A stretch of 39,800 nucleotides of DNA from Promethearchaeota archaeon (GTDB lineage: Archaea > Asgardarchaeota > Lokiarchaeia > Sigyniarchaeales > SOKP01), in the NCBI GenBank assembly GCA_019894715.1, contig JAGXOA010000065.1, positions 1-39,800 of the forward strand, given 5' to 3'. Of the stretch, positions 16,138 through 39,800 are shown piece after piece (the first letter of the stretch is position 1; the number at the start of each line of letters is the position of its first letter). The notes below the pieces were generated by a model that saw only the letters and a list, made by a program, of their open reading frames with translations, did not search any database and was not told where the DNA came from. Position numbers and translations under genes: made by a program.

Positions 16138-17448
16138 ATGCAAAGAAATCTTTTTATCTTTGAATTTATCTCTGGTGGGGGATTTAATAAAAGAATCATA
16201 CCATCCTCACTATTTTGTGAAGGTTTTGGAATGTTAAGATCTATAATTGAGGATTTTAGAAAATTAGATTTTCAAATCACCACCCTGCTGGATATAAGGA
16301 TAAAATACCTGTCATATTTGCTGAATGCTGATTCAATAAATTATATTGATTCTAATATTAATTATATATCCTATTTTAAATCATTGGTAAGAAAGAATAA
16401 TTTTTGTTTTATAATTGCACCTGAATTTTCTAAAATATTAAAAATTTTAACTGAAATAGTAAAGATAAACAAAAAAAAACTTCTTAGCATTGATATTGAA
16501 GGTGTAAATCTTGGGTCTTCTAAATATAAAACATATAAATTCTTCAAAAAAAATAAATTAGAAACACCAGAAACCTTCAAAATACCAATGAAACATAGAA
16601 TTCCAAATAAGGAATTTATTATTAAGAAATTTATAAAATTTAACTCTCCAATAATAATAAAACCTGATGATGGAATTGGAGCGGAATCTATTTTATATTT
16701 TGAAAAAAAAACACAAATAGAAGATATTTTTAAAAATAAATCAAAAATTTTTAATTTAGGAAAAAGATTCCTCCTTCAGAGATACATAGAAGGAAAAGCT
16801 TTGAGTCTATCTCTTATAAGTTATTACTCTGAAGAAAAACGAGAATATAGATCTAAAATATTATCAATAAATTTTCAAAATATTGCTATTTCTAAATTAA
16901 ATGGCAACATAGAATATTTTGGAGGATCTACACCTATTATCAATTACAAAACAGTACATAAAAAAATCTCAGAATTGCTAAAAACAACTAATTTCTCAAA
17001 ATTCCAAGGATTATTTGGAATTGACCTAATTCAGAATGAAAACAAAATATCATTTATTGAGATTAATCCAAGATTAACAACATCTTACTTAGGATTAAGA
17101 AATATATTGAATAAAAATCCTGCAGAATTAATAATAAAAACCAAATTGAATCATATGGTAGAAGGAGCTATAAAAATAGAAAATAACTCATTTTTTTCAA
17201 GATTAGATTTAATTCATAATAAAAACCTTCCCTACAACAAGATTAAAGATGATTTTATTCCTGAATTATTAAAGTTATATCCCGAATTTATAGTTCCTCC
17301 AATCTCACTAAATAATAATCAACTTTCTTGTTTTGTGGTTACAAAAGAGAAATCGTTAGAGAAATCCTTAGATAAATTAAATTTAATAAAAAACTACTTA
17401 ATATCTAAGAATTTTACCATAATAACAAAAGAAAACCCATTTCTTTAG
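16138..17448 (+). CDS. ATP-grasp enzyme, MfnD-like (tyramine-glutamate ligase family)
   Basis: FIFEFISGGGF N-terminus; SPIIIKPDDGIGAESILYF, LLQRYIEGKALSLSLIS, GLFGIDLIQNENKISFIEINPRLTTSYLGLR ATP-grasp motifs. Confidence 0.75.
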   Translation: MQRNLFIFEFISGGGFNKRIIPSSLFCEGFGMLRSIIEDFRKLDFQITTLLDIRIKYLSYLLNADSINYIDSNINYISYFKSLVRKNNFCFIIAPEFSKILKILTEIVKINKKKLLSIDIEGVNLGSSKYKTYKFFKKNKLETPETFKIPMKHRIPNKEFIIKKFIKFNSPIIIKPDDGIGAESILYFEKKTQIEDIFKNKSKIFNLGKRFLLQRYIEGKALSLSLISYYSEEKREYRSKILSINFQNIAISKLNGNIEYFGGSTPIINYKTVHKKISELLKTTNFSKFQGLFGIDLIQNENKISFIEINPRLTTSYLGLRNILNKNPAELIIKTKLNHMVEGAIKIENNSFFSRLDLIHNKNLPYNKIKDDFIPELLKLYPEFIVPPISLNNNQLSCFVVTKEKSLEKSLDKLNLIKNYLISKNFTIITKENPFL

Positions 17449-17478
17449 GAATGAGATGAATTTTAAAAAAAAAATTAA

Positions 17479-17626
17479 TGCAATAATCACTAATCGATAT
17501 CGCACCCTATTCTTAATTAGAGGAAAGCATTAATAATATTAGGGTAGAGAACTATCCTATAATCTCTAAGATTCTTATTGAGATTTCTGGTCTACGAATC
17601 CACTTCCTTTAGGTAGTGATAGTTCA
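17479..17626 (+). ncRNA. Candidate orphan omegaRNA/reRNA-like RNA (copy A) or IS605 right-end relic
   Basis: 148 nt, ~87% identical by eye to 38586-38730 (19 substitutions, one 3-nt gap). Ends CCACTTCCTTTAGGTAGTGATAGTTCA; long-range ATCACTA/TAGTGAT complement; similarity to copy B stops at TAGTTCA. Confidence 0.5.
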
Positions 17627-17662
17627 AAATTATTTAATTTTAAAAAGAAAATAAGGTGAGAA

Positions 17663-38469: not shown

Positions 38470-38585
38470 TTCTAAGTACCTCTTAAATTATATTAAAAGA
38501 AAACTGGTAAATAAACATCGAAAATTCTTGTATAAACTCTATCTCTATACATACAGAATCTAAAATTTAGTCTTAAAAAGAATAT

Positions 38586-38730
38586 TGCAAAAATCACTAA
38601 TCGATATCACAGCCTATTCTCAATTAGAGCAAAGCATTAATAATATTAGGTTAAAGAACTATCCTGTAGTGTCTAAGATCCTCATTGAGGATTAGGGATT
38701 ACAAATCCACTTCCTTTAGGTAGTAGTTCA
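38586..38730 (+). ncRNA. Candidate orphan omegaRNA/reRNA-like RNA (copy B) or IS605 right-end relic
   Basis: 145 nt homologous to 17479-17626; hairpin ATCCTC-ATT-GAGGAT covaries with copy A; ends CCACTTCCTTTAGGTAGTAGTTCA, then unrelated sequence ATGACGTCGTCTAAAG. Confidence 0.5.
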
Positions 38731-38788
38731 ATGACGTCGTCTAAAGTAAGATTGGAAAATTATTAATTAAAAAAAAAAAGAATTATGA

Positions 38789-39676: not shown

Positions 39677-39800
39677 AGTGAACTACACACGGCCTAAAGA
39701 CCGTGGCTTCCTACGAGTACACAACCGCTTCTACTACGGGTTGGCCTGTTTATCGTAGAAAACCATTCCATCATATTTGGAATGATTCCTCGTTCACTGA
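39677..39800 (-). mobile_element. IS200/IS605 right end: probable tnpB 3' tail (stop at 39694-39696) overlapping an omegaRNA-like structure; continues past the window
   Basis: Reverse strand reads ...SERGIIPNMMEWFSTINRPTRSRSGCVLVGSHGL* then hairpin CACGGTC-TTTA-GGCCGTG and GTGTAGTTCAC. Nested complements CTACGA/TCGTAG, CAACC/GGTTG, CATTCCA/TGGAATG; closing AGTGAAC (39677-39683)/GTTCACT (39792-39798). Confidence 0.65.

Follow-up and report, generated by a model that had tools for sequence, protein, structure and literature searches.

The window, by which we mean the whole 39,800-nucleotide stretch of DNA that was analyzed, is an entire contig (C49) of a 3.36 Mb genome assembled in 288 contigs. 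The sequence singled out in the original prediction occurs twice in it, at 17468–17617 (within copy A) and 38575–38724 (within copy B). Realignment of the two copies reproduced the 19 substitutions and single 3-nt gap reported for them, with 127 identities over 149 columns; this similarity is far above chance (E value of 1e-52 for the best other copies in the genome).

Copy A is a full-length mini-element of the family that we term type 1 (17418–17627, + strand), with both ends present. It is preceded by TTTAC (17413–17417, + strand), which occupies the position of the left cleavage site (CL) and of a TAM, and is followed by a right flank in the guide position (17628–17647, + strand). The insertion supplies the last codons of an ATP-grasp ORF (16138–17448): the final 10 residues (TIITKENPFL) and the stop codon come from the left end of copy A (17413–17448), and the ATP-grasp protein of a relative has another C-terminus (SKDFVIY, then stop).

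Copy B (38564–38731, + strand) is a type-1 mini-element that is 5′-truncated or decayed at its left end. Complete elements elsewhere begin ~55 nt further left, and this terminal part is not detectable in B (alignment score 20, vs. a mean of 17.3 and a maximum of 25 for shuffled sequence, and 88 for copy A). Three parts follow one another on the + strand: a left-end-internal segment (38564–38635) in common with a second type of mini-element, whose right end is different but which the query matches over its first 59 nt; a remnant of the tnpB C-terminal coding tail (38636–38695; INNIRLKNYPVVSKILIED, then stop), which forms the 5′ half of the presumed ωRNA scaffold; and the right end (38702–38731), comprising AAAT at the position of the right guide sequence GR (a degenerate GAAT), an imperfect hairpin with a 3-nt deletion, and the right cleavage site (CR) TTCAA. 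The repeat predicted here is thus real, but its homology begins near 38564, and because the right boundary is TTCAA, the flank (TGACGTCG...) starts at 38732, one base later than originally placed. The first 20 nt of this flank (TGACGTCGTCTAAAGTAAGA; 38732–38751, + strand) stand in the TnpB guide position. At the contig end, the minus strand of 39680–39800 holds another TnpB element's right end (...GAAGCCACGGTCTTTAGGCCGTGTGTAGTTCAC), which recurs immediately upstream of a mini-element on contig C95; there, one element has been inserted in the guide position of another.

Two families of mini-elements with a common left end

Type-1 copies matching nearly the whole of the noted sequence number at least 15 in the genome, with the match confined to its left ~59 nt or right ~40–100 nt at ~27 or more further places. 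Eleven full copies, aligned in one orientation, are ~211 nt long and run from CATAATAACAAAAGAAAGCCCATTCCTTTAGGGATGGGATGAA, immediately after TTTAC, to GAATCCACTTCCTTTAGGTAGTGGTAGTTCAA; their borders are sharp, with a mean pairwise identity of 0.85 inside and 0.40–0.44 in the flanks. The ends of IS608 are defined by CL TTAC, CR TCAA, GL AAAG, and GR GAAT (PMC5934647), and the type-1 consensus carries all four signals (CL TTTAC, GL AAAG, GR GAAT, CR TCAA). In copy B, CR is kept, GR reads AAAT, and CL and GL are lost.

The type-2 family comprises at least 36 near-full copies of ~276 bp in the same genome (40 of 196 candidates scored). Type 2 has its left ~59 nt and left-hand hairpin in common with type 1 and differs at the right end, which resembles that of a TnpB element carried by a Lokiarchaeota MAG (L062); its signals are CL TTTAT and GL AAAA. 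Full copies of both types have hairpins at both ends, the left one being missing from B.

Full type-1 and type-2 copies are multi-copy and too short to encode a transposase, as expected of palindrome-associated transposable elements (PATEs), that is, of non-autonomous IS200/IS605 mini-elements. Such elements, including HqIRS71, are known from Haloquadratum walsbyi as short, multi-copy, and transposase-less (PMC3119063); like the elements described here, they have no terminal inverted repeats, cause no target duplication, and carry near-terminal IS605-type palindromes. A MITE of a DDE transposon was also considered and rejected: the ends (CATAAT... after TTTAC, and ...GTAGTTCAA) are not inverted repeats, and there is no target duplication at the insertion on contig C286.

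Three other type-1 copies (L005, L010, and L015) have their left terminus replaced by another palindromic sequence, and are perhaps nested elements or recombinants. At two further loci (L024, G000:C65:53006-53554; L026, G000:C237:4572-), an unrelated palindromic sequence (ATTTTATATATAG...), common to both, comes after the left end; it appears to be a further small mobile repeat, nested in the mini-elements.

The tnpB-derived right end, its fold, and the guide position

The right ~98 nt of type 1 directly follow tnpB in four fragments of the same genome (L109, L110, L111, and L112) and in a same-genus genome (L106). The scaffold therefore corresponds to the terminal ~98 nt of a TnpB element, consisting of the tnpB C-terminal tail and the right end. 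Its source is accordingly a TnpB guide-RNA (ωRNA) locus, and what was taken for the "guide" is the right flank. This bears out the TnpB guide-RNA origin originally proposed. The decayed tail is still recognizable in the mini-elements as a frame, INNIRVENYPVVSKILIE(V) and stop, and the TnpB of L106 ends in IDDIRVENYPVVSTIVIES and stop. Consequently, the internal TAG noted in B (38693–38695) is genuine, but rather than a random interruption of a protein frame it is the old stop codon of tnpB.

Across GTDB genomes, the exact right-end pattern gave one match, the TnpB element of L062. A genome listed in the same family as that of the window (G050) has a match at identical coordinates (1564–1600), which makes it very probable that the host is a Lokiarchaeon. 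No full-length TnpB parent with a type-1 right end was recovered in the assembly, and several such right ends lie at or near contig edges. Those TnpBs of the assembly that are closely related to the type-1 TnpB are truncated or interrupted by stops; the intact TnpBs there (on C249 and C72) are distant. An intact parent may be hidden by assembly breaks at repeats. In two genomes of the same family (G023 and G003), many contigs start or stop inside TnpB-like fragments (28 and 15 matches, respectively), which suggests that high-copy TnpB elements disrupt these assemblies.

The guide RNA (reRNA) of ISDra2 is ~150 nt long and derives from the 3′ end of tnpB and the right end (RE), with the last ~16 nt corresponding to the flank (PMC8612924). 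Likewise, the right ends homologous to those of the present elements come directly after tnpB (L106 and L109–L112), and the guide position falls in the flank; the guide assignment was thus right as to position. The sequences 3′ of A and B do differ, as had been observed, and the 25-nt flank of B occurs once in the window. The host-genome search called for at the time returned no second site for the first 20 nt with up to three mismatches. At the sister locus of C286 in the same-genus genome, the CL motif and the right flank form an uninterrupted target site. Since an intact sister copy conforms to this empty-site logic, the flanks are not simply ordinary orthologous DNA devoid of TAM-flanked targets.

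The claim that the RNA fold is kept did not withstand comparison of more copies. In the three-helix fold of 24 type-1 right ends, 86.0% of cells were paired, compared with 85.5% after shuffling, and seven cells were changed on both sides, compared with 6.0 ± 2.0. For the hairpin on which the claim was based, the corresponding figures were 2 and 2.6 ± 1.1. In 36 type-2 right ends, 91.2% were paired vs. 91.4% in shuffles, with 11 vs. 9.9 ± 2.7 both-side changes. Covariation was therefore not significant in either type, and RNAalifold yielded almost no consensus structure for the 24 type-1 right ends. The difference between A and B in this hairpin is real, but it does not represent a single compensatory event: the key pair is a U-G wobble in 11 of the 24 right ends, C-G in four, and U-A in three, so that a change on one side only separates A, and likewise B, from the wobble. 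The scaffold also decays like the rest of the element. Substitution amounts to 6–13% per site in every region, both for type 1 (0.059–0.126 by region; helix II 0.113, left internal part 0.077) and for type 2 (0.059–0.126; scaffold core 0.081), with the scaffold no more conserved than the remainder. Such a pattern is expected from decay after insertion and gives no support to selection on the RNA.

The fold differs greatly from copy to copy. Folding is good for the consensus right end (about -31 kcal/mol), as it is for the intact copy L002 (z = -2.8) and the parental L105 and L106 (z = -3.2 and -2.7); copy B retains nine of 32 consensus pairs (z = -1.3). Archaeal IS200/IS605 right-end RNAs are represented in Rfam by the haloarchaeal sotRNA families RF02656 and RF02657 (PMC12558985). 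Unlike these, the loci examined here match no relevant family at the gathering score, the one hit being an unrelated tRNA in L109. A CRISPR-repeat match near B was below threshold, at chance level, and was dismissed.

These data bear on whether the mini-elements might be working TnpB-less guide-RNA loci, with the tail/right-end RNA and ~16–20 nt of flank bound by a TnpB encoded elsewhere, which would cut the donor joint after excision and thereby aid persistence. The retained ~98 nt are the reRNA-coding end of a TnpB element, as in ISDra2 (PMC8612924), the consensus, the intact copy L002, and the parental L105 and L106 fold well, and CL and flank at C286 constitute the intact target. However, covariation does not exceed that in shuffles, the scaffold is substituted as fast as the rest, the close TnpB relatives are truncated or stop-ridden, and B folds away from the consensus; moreover, the length retained may only mark where the founding deletion fell. 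We consider this alternative improbable. Function in a few intact copies is conceivable. For copy B, function in trans is conceivable too, but unsupported. The sequence after TTCAA in B does stand in the guide position, but the view that B is an active guide locus finds no support: its left end is missing, its right hairpin is disrupted, it folds poorly, and the assembly contains no close TnpB that is intact.

Insertion sites and mobilization

Most full copies have TTTAC or TTTAT on their left, indicating a fixed short target with insertion 3′ of it. At the locus of copy A, the matched flanks are separated by 290 bp here and by 98 bp in the same-genus genome, in which the element is absent. 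At C286, alignment of the sister sequence runs straight through the joint of TTTAC and right flank, without duplication. At the two loci that can be interpreted, the element is thus missing from the same-genus genome. The counterpart of B's location (G001:C160:4795-5793, in L104) is occupied by ~1 kb of unrelated sequence, in which an ORF has a zinc-ribbon-like motif at its end.

The alignment columns of both types together reveal a close correspondence between CL and GL. A CL ending in C is accompanied by a GL ending in G in nine of 10 copies, and a CL ending in T by a GL ending in A in 25 of 26, giving 34 concordant copies (9 C/G and 25 T/A) against two discordant ones (Fisher p = 1e-6, which is approximate given subfamily descent). 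Shared subfamily descent may have inflated this concordance, although each insertion takes its CL from a new target. Because CL is target DNA acquired at every insertion, the concordance speaks for pairing between GL and the target, as known from IS608. One intact TnpA was found in the assembly (C109); the left end there (TTTAC, 13 nt, GAAAG, hairpin) has the same geometry as that of the mini-elements, and we infer that a Y1 TnpA of this kind mobilizes the mini-elements in trans.

It is very improbable that B is the right-end remnant of a full TnpB element which decayed in place and was never a transposed copy. B does lack the left terminus, and AGTTCAACGAC occurs in the sister genome close to the equivalent position, possibly by chance. 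However, the left-end-internal segment of B joins the tnpB tail in precisely the manner seen in the mini-elements, so B descends from a mini-element and not directly from a full element. Lastly, A and B both lie between genes, near gene 3′ ends, but it is scarcely conceivable that they represent conserved intergenic regulatory RNAs of an ordinary kind, or UTR elements, belonging to the neighboring genes, a reading contradicted by the empty orthologous sites and at odds with copies on many contigs with unrelated flanks and mobile-element borders, as well as with the lack of an Rfam family at threshold.

Origin of the elements and relation to known systems

Copies A and B are very probably non-autonomous IS608-type IS200/IS605 mini-elements (PATEs) that were moved in trans and have decayed with no visible selection on the RNA, B being an immobile fossil. 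Family membership and the element ends follow from sequence comparison, which also discloses the tnpB tail and the empty sites and fails to disclose covariation. As to the events behind them, a TnpB-bearing element would have lost its core, joining its left end to the last ~98 nt (tnpB tail and right end, ωRNA-encoding). A Y1 transposase supplied in trans would then have moved the resulting mini-element as single-stranded DNA into sites 3′ of TTTAC, with the guide tetranucleotides at each end pairing with the cleavage sites. Insertion in this manner would leave each copy adjoining different DNA, in the TnpB guide position. After insertion the copies would have decayed neutrally; with its left end gone and its right hairpin broken, B would no longer be mobile.

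Elements of this PATE-like kind have already been described in haloarchaea (PMC3119063); here they have TnpB guide-RNA ends. HqIRS71 keeps part of the C-terminal coding region of the transposase (PMC3119063), and the mini-elements described here keep the tnpB tail. In contrast to the haloarchaeal PATEs, the present elements come from a genome that shares its family with a Lokiarchaeota MAG, form two families with one left end and different TnpB right ends, and have IS608-type signals with a natural CL/GL switch. They share with IS608 the placement of signals beside subterminal palindromes and insertion 3′ of the target tetranucleotide (PMC5934647); unlike IS608, they have no internal tnpA or tnpB, and type 2 uses CL TTTAT with GL AAAA. 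ISDra2 TnpB uses an RNA encoded by the tnpB 3′ end and RE, with flanking DNA as the guide (PMC8612924), an arrangement also seen here, whereas the mini-elements have no tnpB and their RNA is putative.

Two-copy "compensatory changes" in repeats such as these are not evidence for a kept RNA fold, and the present case serves as a warning in that respect. High-copy IS608-type PATEs with TnpB guide-RNA ends can now be placed in a genome belonging to the family of a Lokiarchaeota MAG, and their insertions provide a natural test of the IS608 targeting rule, since the last base of GL predicts the last base of the target in 34 of 36 cases. There is also a slim chance that the TnpB-less mini-elements (~50 or more) still produce guide RNAs that a resident TnpB employs in trans, with copy B probably excluded from the set; if so, one nuclease would protect or police dispersed non-autonomous elements and their empty sites.
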